A DNA stretch of 45,415 nucleotides, taken from positions 10,369 through 55,783 of the forward strand of contig JAUNDI010000011.1 of NCBI GenBank assembly GCA_030526155.1. The letters are read 5' to 3'. The notes beneath the pieces were generated by a model. The model ran no database searches and was not told the DNA's origin. It saw only the letters and a program-made list of their open reading frames with translations. This stretch comes from Bacteroidia bacterium (lineage in GTDB: Bacteria > Bacteroidota > Bacteroidia > Bacteroidales > Marinilabiliaceae). The translations under genes and the position numbers were made by a program. Of the stretch, positions 8,253 to 41,806 are shown one piece after another (position 1 is the first letter of the stretch; every line of letters begins with the position of its first letter).

Positions 8253-8632
8253 TCAGTAGGACGGTCTATCGCTGGCGTGCAAACGCGGGAGGAAAGTCCG
8301 GGCAACGCAAGGCACTATGCTTCCTAACGGGAAGAACTTCGTGAGGGGATAGTAGCGTAACAGAAAATAACCGCCAGCTTGCTGGTAAGGGTGAAAAGGT
8401 GAGGTAAGAGCTCACCGGGGTTGTGGCGACACGGCTGCCGTACGCCTCATAGGTTGAAAGAACGTGTATATTTCGATTCTACATTGTAGAGCATGGTTGC
8501 CTGCTGTGTTATACATTTTCGGATGTATTGTCGGAAGGGGTAGTTCGATTGAGGTCATGGGTGACTGTGATCCTAGATAAATGATAGACGCTCACTTTGT
8601 GAGTACAGAACTCGGCTTATAGACCTACTGAA
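8253..8632 (+). ncRNA. rnpB: RNase P RNA (M1 RNA), bacterial type A
   Basis: The P4/CRI core GAGGAAAGTCCGGGC is at 8289-8303, and the 3' signature ACAGAACTCGGCTTATAGACC begins at 8605. The ends pair as helix P1: CAGTAGG (8254-8260) with CCTACTG (8624-8630). The preceding GGTCTATCGC is the usual 5' segment. The RNA is the catalytic part of RNase P, which matures tRNA 5' ends. It begins only 8-9 nt after the SPOR gene and I see no good promoter in between, so it may be cut from the porE-SPOR transcript or use a promoter inside the CDS. The ends are approximate by a few bases. Confidence 0.97.
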
Positions 8633-8640
8633 TCTTATAT

Positions 8641-27242: not shown

Positions 27243-28550
27243 TTATTTTTTACGCATTACTAGATTTACTGGGACACCGGTGAAATCCCACATTTCGCGC
27301 ATTTTGTTTTCGAGGAATCTCTTGTAAGGATCCTTTATGTATTGAGGAAGATTACAGAAGAATGCGAAAGTAGGGGTTGCGCTAGGTAGCTGAGTAATAT
27401 ACTTAATGCGGATATATTTACCCTTTGTTGCTGGAGGTGGGTATTCTCCTATTATAGGTAGGAGAGCCTCGTTGAGTTCGGATGTAGAGATACGGCGCTT
27501 ACGGTTCTCGTAAACCTTATCAGCTTGTTCGATAGCCTCGTAGATACGTTGTTTGTTAGGTACGGAGGTAAATACGATTGGGAAATCGGTATATGGAGCC
27601 ATTTCGGCACGGATTACCTCTTCCCATTTTTTAGCTGTCTTAGAGTCCTTCTGAATCAAGTCCCACTTATTCACGAGTACTACTACGCCCTTATTATTCT
27701 TTTGGATTAGAGAGAATATCTTTTTATCCTGAGCCTCGAATCCACGAGTAGCGTCGACCATAAGGATACAAACGTCGGAATTCTCGATAGCTCTAACGGA
27801 GCGCATAGTAGAGTAGAATTCGACATCATCCTTCTCCTTATTACGTTTACGAAGGCCTGCGGTATCTACTAGGTAGAAGTCGTGTCCGAACTTATTATAC
27901 CTTGTGTAGATAGAATCGCGAGTAGTACCAGCTATTGAGGTAACGATATTTCTATCCTCGCCCATGAAAGCGTTAAGGATAGAAGACTTACCAGCGTTAG
28001 GGCGGCCAACGATAGTATATTTAGGGAGAGAGTCGTCGATATCGCTCTTTACGTCCTCTGGGAGAAGTTCAAGAACGCGGTCGAGCAGATCGCCGGTACC
28101 ACTACCATTACCACCAGAGATGGTAAAGAAGTCCTTAAAGCCGAGGCGATGGAACTCATAAGTATCGCCCATGTGTTCGGTATAGTCAACCTTATTCACC
28201 ACGAGAAGAACATTCTTCTTAGAGCGGCGAAGAAGGTCGGCAATCTCCATATCGTAATCGGTGATACCCACCTGTACGTCGACGAGGAATAGGATTACAG
28301 CTGCTTCGTCTACGGCTAGCTGTACTTGGCGACGAATTTCGACTTCGAATTCATCATCAGAATTGAAAGTATAACCGCCTGTATCGATGATAGAAAACTC
28401 CTTACCATTCCAAAATACCTTTCCATATTGGCGGTCACGTGTGACACCAGCTGTCTCATCAACTATTGCTTGACGAGATTGAGTAAGTCTGTTGAAGAGA
28501 GTAGACTTGCCTACGTTAGGGCGTCCTACTATAGCTACAATATTTCCCAT
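27243..28550 (-). CDS. der: Ribosome biogenesis GTPase Der (EngA)
   Basis: This 435-residue double-GTPase helps assemble the 50S subunit. The first G domain has GRPNVGKST (residues 9-17), DTGGY and NKVD. The second has [17 protein letters not shown] and NKWD. A C-terminal KH-like domain (~355-435) has the motif [18 protein letters not shown]. Length and arrangement are standard. It has its own promoter on minus and leads the der-RDD pair. Confidence 0.98.
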
Positions 28551-28566
28551 AATCAGATATTTGGCG

Positions 28567-28598
28567 CAAATATAATTAAAGAGTTGCGTAAAGACAAA
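28567..28598 (-). promoter_or_regulatory. Bacteroidetes-type promoter for der
   Basis: On the minus strand, TTTG (28595-28598) and TATATTTG (28567-28574) are 20 nt apart, an ideal fit. It lies 17 nt before the der ATG. Confidence 0.8.
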
Positions 28599-28644
28599 GT
28601 TATTACTCGCTTTATGTTTTCTTTACATTGTTTAAGGGAGGGGA

Positions 28645-28703
28645 GTAGTTGTTTTAGTTGCTCTAGTTATTCTAGTTAATCTAGATTGACTAGATGGGGC
28701 TAG
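28645..28703 (+). repeat. 9-nt periodic CTAG array, upstream of menE
   Basis: Units read TTGTTTTAG, TTGCTCTAG, TTATTCTAG, TTAATCTAG, ATTGACTAG, ATGGGGCTAG: five-base variable part then CTAG/TTAG, mostly every 9 nt. A GGGGCGGG box (28709-28716) follows directly. Confidence 0.85.
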
Positions 28704-28726
28704 AATGAGGGGCGGGTGGACCCTTG

Positions 28727-28873
28727 TTGCTCGCAGTTTTTGGTAAAGGAGGATATAGGGAGCACCTTGTTTGCTCGCAGTTTTTTATTAGGGAGGGGAT
28801 TGGGTGGAGGCTTTTTGCTCGCAGTTTTTTTATTGTGTGGGGGTAGGGTGTGGCCTTCTTGGTCGTAAATTTT
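28727..28873 (+). repeat. 44-nt tandem units with TTGCTCGCAG plus T-tract
   Basis: TTGCTCGCAGTTTTT starts at 28727, 28771 and 28815, exactly 44 nt apart. A fourth, decayed copy (TTGGTCGTAAATTTTT) starts at 28859, again at +44. Unit ends are G-rich and similar (GGGAGCACCTTGT, GGGTGGAGGCTTT, GGGTGTGGCCTTC). The fourth unit merges into the menE -7 box TATATTTG (28874-28881). Confidence 0.85.
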
Positions 28874-28902
28874 TATATTTGCGGATATATTTTGAAGTGG
28901 TT

Positions 28903-29868
28903 ATGTTTATAGATGAGTGGAATAGTGATTTGGAGTTTGTGGAGGTGCAGACTTCGGGGTCGACGGGGGTACCTAAGGTAATGCGTGTGGAGAAGAGGCG
29001 GATGGTGGCATCGGCGCGGATGACGTTGGATTTTTTGAGGTTAGAGAGAGGGGATACGGCGTTATTGTGTTTGCCTGATAAGTATATAGCTGGGAAGATG
29101 ATGGTAGTGAGGAGTATTATTGGCGGATTGAGGTTGATATCTGTTGAGCCTTGTGGTAATCCTTTGCTTAGTGTTGAGGAGGGGGAGCATATATGTTTTG
29201 CTGCCTTTACGCCTATGCAGGTATATAATATGTTGGGAGATGAGGTGAGTAGGAGGAGATTTGAGGCTATAGATAAGATTATTATAGGAGGTGGAGCCGT
29301 TTCAGGTACTCTGGCAGAGGAGTTGAGGTGGATGAAGAATGAGATATGGTCGACCTACGGTATGACAGAGACATTATCCCATATTGCGATGAGACCATTA
29401 TCGGGAGCGGGTGCTTCTGATTGGTATGAGACATTGAAGGGTGTGAATATATCTACAAATGGCGAGGGGTGTATGGTAATAGATGCGCCACATGTAGCGG
29501 AGGGGCTATTAGAGACCAATGATATAGTAGAGATACGAGAAGATGGTAGGTTTAAGATATTGGGGAGGAGAGATAATGTGGTATGCTCTGGAGGTGTGAA
29601 GATGCAGATAGAGCAGATGGAGCAGAGGATTGCGGTGAAGTATTTAGGAGAGTTTGCGTTATCTTGGGTAGAGGATGAGAGATTGGGTCAGGCATTAGTA
29701 TTGGTATATACAAAAAAGGAGGATAGGGAAGAGATAGAGAGGGTATGTGGAGAGGTTTTGGAGAAGATTGAGAGGCCGAAGAGGTATATTTGGGTTGAGG
29801 CGTTGCCTTATACGGAGACGGGGAAGATTGCGAGGGGGATGCTTCGTGAATTGATAATTGACAAATGA
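28903..29868 (+). CDS. menE: AMP-binding acyl-CoA ligase, probable o-succinylbenzoate-CoA ligase
   Basis: 321 residues from ATG 28903; the longer frame upstream is repeat sequence. It is an ANL-superfamily enzyme with the P-loop TSGSTGVPKVM near residue 17, the aromatic loop STYGMTETLSHIA, and KILGRRDNVVCSGGVKMQIEQME at the hinge to the C-terminal lid, which ends with the Lys region ETGKIARGML. It activates o-succinylbenzoate for menaquinone synthesis if the MenE call is right. It is very short for the superfamily: most of the N-terminal domain before the P-loop is missing, as in compact Bacteroidetes MenE. It precedes dacB by 22 nt; no other men gene is in the window. Confidence 0.75.
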   Translation: MFIDEWNSDLEFVEVQTSGSTGVPKVMRVEKRRMVASARMTLDFLRLERGDTALLCLPDKYIAGKMMVVRSIIGGLRLISVEPCGNPLLSVEEGEHICFAAFTPMQVYNMLGDEVSRRRFEAIDKIIIGGGAVSGTLAEELRWMKNEIWSTYGMTETLSHIAMRPLSGAGASDWYETLKGVNISTNGEGCMVIDAPHVAEGLLETNDIVEIREDGRFKILGRRDNVVCSGGVKMQIEQMEQRIAVKYLGEFALSWVEDERLGQALVLVYTKKEDREEIERVCGEVLEKIERPKRYIWVEALPYTETGKIARGMLRELIIDK

Positions 29869-41518: not shown

Positions 41519-41728
41519 CTAGGGTAGTTGTTTTAGTTGTTCTAGTGGGGCTAGTTATTCTAGTTATTCTAGTGGGGCTAGATTGGCTAGAGGGAGATAG
41601 AATGGTGGGCGGGTGGACTCTTGTTGCTCGCAGTTTTTTTAGTTGTTCTAGTTATTTTAGTGGGGCTAGATTGGCTAGAGGGGGCTAGAATGGTGGGCGG
41701 GTGGACTCTTGTTGCTCGCAGTTTTTTT
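41519..41728 (+). repeat. Composite intergenic repeat, two copies 88 nt apart
   Basis: Array 1 (41519-41600) has 9-nt units such as TTGTTCTAG, TGGGGCTAG, TTATTCTAG and ATTGGCTAG, then GGGCGGG (41607-41613) and TTGCTCGCAG at 41624 with T7. Array 2 (41641-41688) repeats the pattern, with TTGCTCGCAG at 41712. The 79-nt stretches 41562-41640 and 41650-41728 differ at only three positions. Confidence 0.9.
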
Positions 41729-41806
41729 AGTTTGGGGTTTTGGTTTTTGTTTTTTTTTGTTGGGGATTTGTTTAGGAGTGTTGGGGTGTTGAAAATGTAC
41801 GTGTAT

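Follow-up and report, generated by a model that had tools for sequence, protein, structure and literature searches.

Bacterial intergenic repeats are usually explained as parts of promoters or as REPs moved by RAYTs. A tandem repeat lying directly upstream of a menE-like gene raises the question of whether such an array serves its neighbor or belongs to something larger. The array was found in the window considered here, i.e., the whole 45,415-nt stretch of DNA that was analyzed from the genome of a member of the Bacteroidales. It is flanked by the gene for the ribosome biogenesis GTPase Der (27243..28550, minus strand; NCBIfam TIGR03594, 529.8 bits, above cut-off) and by the gene for a menE-like acyl-CoA ligase (28903..29868, plus strand), whose best NCBIfam match, menE TIGR01923, lies at 127 bits below the cut-off of 330.

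A repeat search of the window bore out the four copies at exact 44-nt steps that an earlier note on this DNA had described: the tandem array spans 28714-28889 with spacings of 44, 44 and 44 nt, and copies 2-4 are 68-73% identical to copy 1 (TRF: 28714-28830, period 44, score 130). All units lie on the plus strand. Unit 1 (28714..28757) carries the core TTGCTCGCAGTTTTT at 28727-28741 and gives an HMM match of 22.3 bits, unit 2 (28758..28801) has its core at 28771-28785 (29.9 bits), and unit 3 (28802..28845) at 28815-28829 (16.9 bits). Exact matches to TTGCTCGCAG stand within these cores at 28727, 28771 and 28815, followed by an in-register decayed copy, TTGGTCGTAA, at 28859. Unit 4 (28846..28889), recovered by the repeat search and giving nothing above 5 bits with the HMM, has a decayed core, TTGGTCGTAAATTTTT, at 28859-28874 and runs into the TATATTTGC box at 28874-28882, which is separated by 20 nt from the start codon of the menE-like gene (ATG, 28903). 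The T-tract after every core, the G-rich stretch, and the merging of the last copy into the -7 box of menE, all reported previously, were likewise confirmed. Upstream of the first core, a TAG-phased stretch (28646..28713, plus strand) is part of the same element; it consists of a 9-bp module resembling (TAGTTRTTC)n (TRF period 9/18 at 28646-28684) followed by TAGATTGACTAGATGGGGCTAGAATG, which can fold into a CTAG-based hairpin. Neither this part nor a second array at 41525..41735 had been noticed before. The second array, also on the plus strand, is built of two 88-nt units that contain 9-bp TAG modules, with exact cores at 41624-41638 and 41712-41726 (TRF 88-nt unit, 95% matches, score 334), and both arrays of the window lie within strongly positive skew. 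Inside the window alone the enrichment is only moderately above chance, as six 10-mers with one mismatch were found compared with a shuffle mean of 1.68, and 3 of 100 shuffles reached six. A scan against Rfam 15 returned no array match above the gathering score, the two matches at 28500-29000 being far below threshold; the sole Rfam match in the window above that score is a bacterial class A RNase P RNA at 8253-8635 (RF00010, 228 bits).

The repeat is far from local. In the 2.6-Mb source genome of the window (G000), the exact 15-mer TTGCTCGCAGTTTTT has 46 copies and the degenerate core TTSMTCGYARTTTTT has 118, compared with none for either reversed control. A BLAST search of the same genome with the second array picked out 53 places with E values of up to 1, and an HMM trained on other loci, run over 545 kb, gave 57 matches scoring 8 bits or more and none on the reversed sequence. 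Steps of 44 nt recur at other loci, so the genome-wide motif check proposed in the earlier note came out in favor of a dispersed, phased repeat. The exact core occurs in six of the 71 genomes of the taxonomic family, namely G000 (46), G011 (109), G012 (78), G013 (30), G001 (1) and G048 (1); beyond single matches, the repeat is thus found in four of the 71, all of one genus and representing four species. A pattern one T shorter gave 171 matches versus 0 for its reversal in G011 and 267 versus 1 in G012, and three of the four carriers have more than 100 core copies. Across 392 other genomes of the order (G011-G013 set apart), TTSMTCGYARTTTTT matched four times in each of two genomes, nine times in G163 and 0-3 times in the rest, near the control level. 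In G163, an order-level relative, the nine TTGATCGYAATTTTT matches, compared with 0-3 in most genomes, may be another repeat. The TAG module CTAGTTRTTCTAG has 87 copies in G000 only and is lacking in the genus's other 14 genomes; with a core common to four species and a TAG module private to one, the core is shared while the upstream part differs.

Among the matches listed, three horse-faeces Bacteroidales MAGs had many matches and 16 unrelated records had one match each; the three MAGs match the carriers G011-G013 with 100% identity where checked. The horse loci referred to below are at least 110 stretches among the matches listed, mostly from such MAGs. The 16 one-match records (and L061 where relevant) were dropped from the horse set in later analyses, from the logo onward, and the first context count and the early spacing and autocorrelation counts still included chance matches from unrelated organisms. 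A phage origin was rejected: 15 viral contigs containing a 16-mer have one site each, one with a near-match 107 nt away and none with a pair at a multiple of 11, and were treated as chance. Among the papers listed in the literature searched, mostly titles and abstract openings with few subscription papers, no description of this family was seen, in keeping with the earlier note, to which no known Bacteroidales repeat family had suggested itself.

The underlying step of the family is 11 bp. Same-strand spacings in G000 (44, 88, 132) are multiples of 11 in 19 of 22 cases, the exceptions being 43, 79 and 79, and among the horse loci listed (55, 66, 77, 88, 110, 132, 176) in 24 of 26, with exceptions of 67 and 104. 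With more sequence, 25 of 29 spacings in G000 are multiples of 11 (adding 55, 99 and 110; exceptions 43, 79, 79 and 89), as are 10 of 11 on the horse contigs, each of these sets overlapping the earlier one from the same source. Since spacings within one array and in homologous arrays are not independent, small p-values overstate the case, and the distinct spacing values, of which 6 of 9 and 7 of 10 are multiples of 11, provide a fairer figure. The two 79-nt spacings in G000 equal 88 minus one 9-bp module; the lattice is therefore a unit-counting rule with exceptions. As regards possible selection for one helical face, relaxed B-DNA has 10.5 bp per turn and supercoiled DNA about 11 bp, and spacings in multiples of 11 at 110-132 bp are out of step with the relaxed form. 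Autocorrelation upstream of the core peaks at 11, 22, 33 and 44 in the horse loci listed and is highest at 9, 18, 44 and 11 in G000.

The sequence logo is likewise 11-bp-periodic, with horse modules of CTRG/GARG plus TATAAGG and similar, then TTGCTCGCAGT, then TTTTTTATT. In the general layout, 11-bp modules in varying number, joined in G000 by 9-bp TAG modules, come before a terminal module of TTGCTCGCAGT with TTTTT(T)ATT. The exact core was the search key for the autocorrelation, context, logo and first skew counts, so its sharpness in the logo arises by construction. Among matches of a degenerate pattern, TTGCTCGCAG is exact in 42 of 79 in G000 and 115 of 155 in the horse set, and conservation is much stronger in the core than in the modules. 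In 117 listed horse arrays, module similarity is 0.457 between neighbors in one array, 0.347 between different arrays and 0.23 off the lattice (within-array z 7.2); similarity on the lattice across arrays, and higher similarity within them, indicates a shared consensus plus local copying. These values support repeated slippage with conserved anchors, and a motif that is real and constrained agrees with selection on the spaced motif; both had been offered as explanations of the window array. Arrays would gain and lose complete 11-bp modules, either by slippage or by local recombination.

Most arrays point along the leading, G-rich strand, whatever the direction of the genes. When the array is left out of the calculation, the core's strand agrees with the regional GC skew in 62 of 70 listed horse loci and 17 of 21 G000 loci, while agreement with coding direction at those loci is 33 of 70 and 9 of 21. 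Around the loci, the mean skew stays above zero in all bins out to about 6 kb. Among the 70 loci for which two flanks were available, both flanks have positive skew in 50, both have negative skew in 5, and the signs differ in 15. The skew at third codon positions agrees for 34 of 41 arrays in G000 and 33 of 42 on the horse contigs, leaving 7 (about one in six) and 9 (about one in five), respectively, that oppose it; where this skew exceeds 0.05, the split is 33 versus 4 and 29 versus 6. Coding direction agrees for 21 of the same 41 and 26 of the same 42 arrays. The horse contigs overlap the horse loci of the GC-skew count, the G000 sets used for spacing and skew overlap, and the G000 and G003 stretches for the skew counts were chosen at known sites. 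In two whole contigs, the third-position skew of plus- and minus-strand genes mostly has the same sign, as expected for replication skew. Element direction there mostly follows the skew domains and tends to switch together with the sign of the skew; the exceptions include an array of four copies at 132 kb of G012:C1. In G011:C1, the region at about 150-220 kb has weakly positive skew, and its seven elements are all on the plus strand. This region (L223-L226) has reversed skew, with the elements reversed too, in a mostly negative contig, and is possibly an inversion. In both G000:C58 and G012:C44, the G-rich strand carries the ribosomal protein gene rplB and was therefore taken as leading; five of eight arrays on G000:C58 agree with the skew. 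Differential decay as the source of this polarity was ruled out: copies against the skew are no more decayed than the others (30.5 versus 29.8 bits, n = 42 and 15), so the orientation bias does not stem from it.

Other members of the genus have repeats of their own. In G003, the unrelated repeat CTCGCTTAATCGRAA has 188 copies, compared with 0 for its control, does not occur in the 14 remaining members of the genus, and is accompanied by TTTCTCACGCTCGGC modules (e.g., L296:1627-6460; C32:11627-16462). Its spacing shows no 11-bp lattice. It nonetheless has the same polarity, as 32 of 36 arrays on 25 stretches agree with the skew (31 versus 2 where the skew is clear), and rplB of G003 is a plus-strand gene in a stretch of positive skew. 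In G003 there is a bias in coding direction as well (28 of 36; 3 of 36 arrays overlap ORFs of at least 100 aa), and the separation from gene direction is therefore weaker than in G000. In addition, G004 and G005 have gaps (e.g., L303:1365) with a 7-bp periodicity, lag 7 being highest, with further peaks at 28 and at 21 or 14; the G004 gaps contain AAATTGAAAATT runs.

A genome-wide family with mostly 11-bp steps and mostly replication-oriented copies suggests a spreading or chromosome-marking element rather than a switch for a neighboring gene. The explanation we favor, to which we would give an even chance, is a lineage-specific, mostly intergenic, non-coding repeat family that grows in 11-bp units and spreads in a replication-strand-dependent manner by means of an enzyme acting in trans, any effect on menE being incidental. 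Spread would then depend on reading one of the replication strands; the simplest route would be insertion into the single-stranded lagging-strand template by a putative enzyme supplied in trans. The unrelated G003 family has the same polarity (32 of 36), in line with what is predicted if the bias is driven by a process. That four diverged species have kept the core, however, could equally reflect selection for function.

The main rival to spread by insertion is that the arrays form a polar chromosome mark, i.e., sites for a direction-sensing DNA-binding protein or translocase, comparable to KOPS or AIMS, with a motif that changes fast between species. Such a mark accounts for the polarity and for core conservation as well as replication-dependent spread does. 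The strong leading-strand polarity, the tendency of element direction to flip with the sign of the skew inside contigs, the shared polarity of the G003 family, the far better preservation of the core than of the modules, and the undiminished integrity of copies against the skew are all in its favor, and an 11-bp lattice suits a bound protein. The arrays may be protein-binding, as had been proposed for the window, but the lattice is 11 rather than 44 bp and the polarity tracks replication rather than the gene. Against a polar mark, the motif occurs beyond single matches in only four of the 71 family genomes, the arrays are far longer than the 8-bp AIMS, and a 9-bp step is tolerated in the two 79-nt spacings. 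Its sites also turn over. Taken together, we regard a polar mark as possible, though doubtful.

Turnover is apparent from gaps between conserved gene pairs. Among 27 such gaps compared between the horse genomes H91 and H90, an element is present in both in one case, in one genome only in four, and in neither in 22. Between G000 and 8-kb horse loci picked for having elements, the counts are one in both, one in the horse only and 14 in neither; compared with H90 contigs, one gap is filled in the horse only and 26 in neither, and with an H91 contig all eight are empty. The differing presence at these 27 gaps, with crude ORF calls, suggests that sites turn over between species. One filled/empty pair differs by about 80 extra bases containing the element, located after the end of a short ORF. 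In seven gap alignments inspected for target-site duplications, the flanks were mostly too diverged. No terminal inverted repeats were found, the inverted match across arrays being 6.91 with native versus 7.00 with shuffled pairing for the horse arrays and 6.97 versus 6.79 for G000. Similarly, no leader or tail emerged, as no flanking 9-mer occurs in more than 10 of 116 listed horse arrays or more than 8 of 37 G000 arrays; the most frequent ones are T-rich, promoter-box-like or TAG-repeat words.

Mostly intergenic, high-copy sites bring to mind REP/REPIN-like elements mobilized by a RAYT, a Y1 transposase of the IS200/IS605 group, which we consider unlikely. The orientation of the arrays is as expected of lagging-strand insertion, the Y1 transposase domain (Y1_Tnp, PF01797) gave one match in G011, and a few opposite-strand neighbors lie within 100 nt among the sites listed. 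In G000, TAG arrays can form hairpins: of 67 windows, a count that includes both strands of an array, 49 reach a folding z of -2 or below on one strand or both. However, the horse-type arrays are unstructured (z -0.26; complement -0.76; upstream control -0.11), and arrays are mostly head-to-tail rather than inverted doublets. Y1_Tnp gave no match in G000, G012 or G013, and RVT_1 was found in three of four carriers and is absent from G000, but these genomes are fragmented drafts, 86-97% complete, and a missing enzyme is therefore weak evidence. Furthermore, G001, with Y1_Tnp matches and REP-like hairpins, has only one exact core match. These hairpins are of the AGCAAGGCTCCTGCCTTGC type (L293:13147, L293:14292, L309:12771-15801).

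The folding of some arrays also invites the reading that they are intrinsic terminators, with the core as the 3' hairpin arm plus U-tract. Three of the four window copies have a terminator-like stem whose end is the core (four such stems in the stretch versus 0.6 expected), and the second array has a good stem. The window array (L025) folds with z values of -2.82 and -2.72 (complements -3.63 and -4.24). Native upstream arms fold with the core better than base-shuffled ones (-7.09 versus -5.64 in G000 and -5.01 versus -4.56 in the horse set). Swapped arms, however, are equally good: same-core and other-core swaps gave -7.28 and -6.88 in G000, and -4.98 and -5.12 in the horse set. Since the hairpin is not weakened by the swaps, the arms do not covary, and with no compensatory conservation of the hairpin, an intrinsic terminator was ruled out as the general role. 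CTAG is itself a palindrome, so folding of the TAG modules may be a by-product, and RNA structure as a general basis was dismissed on the z of the horse-type arrays. In a family of terminators, the arms should covary and the arrays should sit where genes end; neither pattern was observed, and 30 of 96 intergenic clusters lie between divergent genes. This reading is thus highly improbable.

This leaves the promoter. In the first count, with ORFs called crudely by length and unverified as real, 96 of 129 clusters fell between ORFs and 33 overlapped an ORF of at least 80 aa. The intergenic clusters were distributed over the four gene-orientation contexts as 22, 25, 19 and 30, with no gene-direction preference. 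Boxes of the TANNTTTGC type occur within 210 nt downstream of 34 of 153 arrays (22%) compared with 3% of random windows, an excess that intergenic positions lead one to expect; such boxes are also found upstream, reading away, for 36 of 153. The distance from array to box varies from 15 to 198 nt. In genome H91, the element beside der faces that gene rather than away from it, and the other neighbor is a different ORF. On these distances and orientations, a promoter element was rejected as a general role. Thus, of the interpretation in the earlier note, motif constraint and slippage stand, and the tie to a promoter does not. A role of the array in regulating the adjacent promoter, whether as an upstream element or as a phased operator, has scarcely any probability, even with the last window copy adjoining the -7-like box of the menE-like gene and boxes common near arrays, given the unfixed box distance, the neutral gene direction and the opposite orientation at der in H91. 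Any effect of the array on menE would be incidental, and a repeat beside a promoter should not be taken as evidence of regulation.

Considered together, the repeats of this genus suggest, tentatively, a wider pattern in which sister species of one gut Bacteroidales genus each have their own unrelated high-copy intergenic tandem repeats, leading-strand-oriented in the lineages tested. Such a pattern might represent either a fast-evolving polar code, satellite-like and read by a co-evolving DNA-binding protein or translocase, or a new form of replication-coupled spread without a known transposase. If the polarity holds on closed genomes, the genus would offer a natural system for asking whether it is imposed by the mode of insertion or by a need of the chromosome.

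Several known systems share features with this family, in each case as far as the available portions of the cited reports describe them. Like REP and REPIN sequences with their RAYTs, the arrays are abundant, intergenic and non-coding, and some form hairpins; unlike them, they consist mostly of head-to-tail, same-strand modules with few opposite-strand neighbors, and a Y1 transposase is missing in three of four carriers (PMC3116915, PMC3733652). Single-strand transposition of the IS200/IS605 type differs in that horse-type arrays have no hairpins and its enzyme was not found in three of four carriers, but lagging-strand insertion of this kind would fix the orientation of an element relative to the fork (PMC6006769). 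AIMS, which are 8 bp long and increase towards the terminus (PMC5993296), and KOPS resemble the family as leading-strand-biased motifs at many genomic sites; the present repeats, in contrast to AIMS, are long, mostly intergenic arrays in four species, known from draft genomes. The nearest known system is BrickBuilt of Porphyromonas gingivalis, a minisatellite/MITE with a 23-nt unit, a leader and tail, inverted-repeat ends and 19 copies, for which 4-nt target duplications are described at two sites (PMC4596501); it is also covered elsewhere (PMC5771137). Here, by comparison, the modules are 11 bp, a terminal core is present, no leader, tail or inverted ends were found, more than 100 core copies occur in three genomes, and there is a leading-strand polarity that the available text of PMC4596501 does not mention for BrickBuilt. 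Both families nevertheless belong to the Bacteroidales and comprise imperfect tandem repeats between genes, as seen here in the majority of clusters, and both are multi-copy, limited in their hosts, variable in length by whole units, and marked by signs of mobility.
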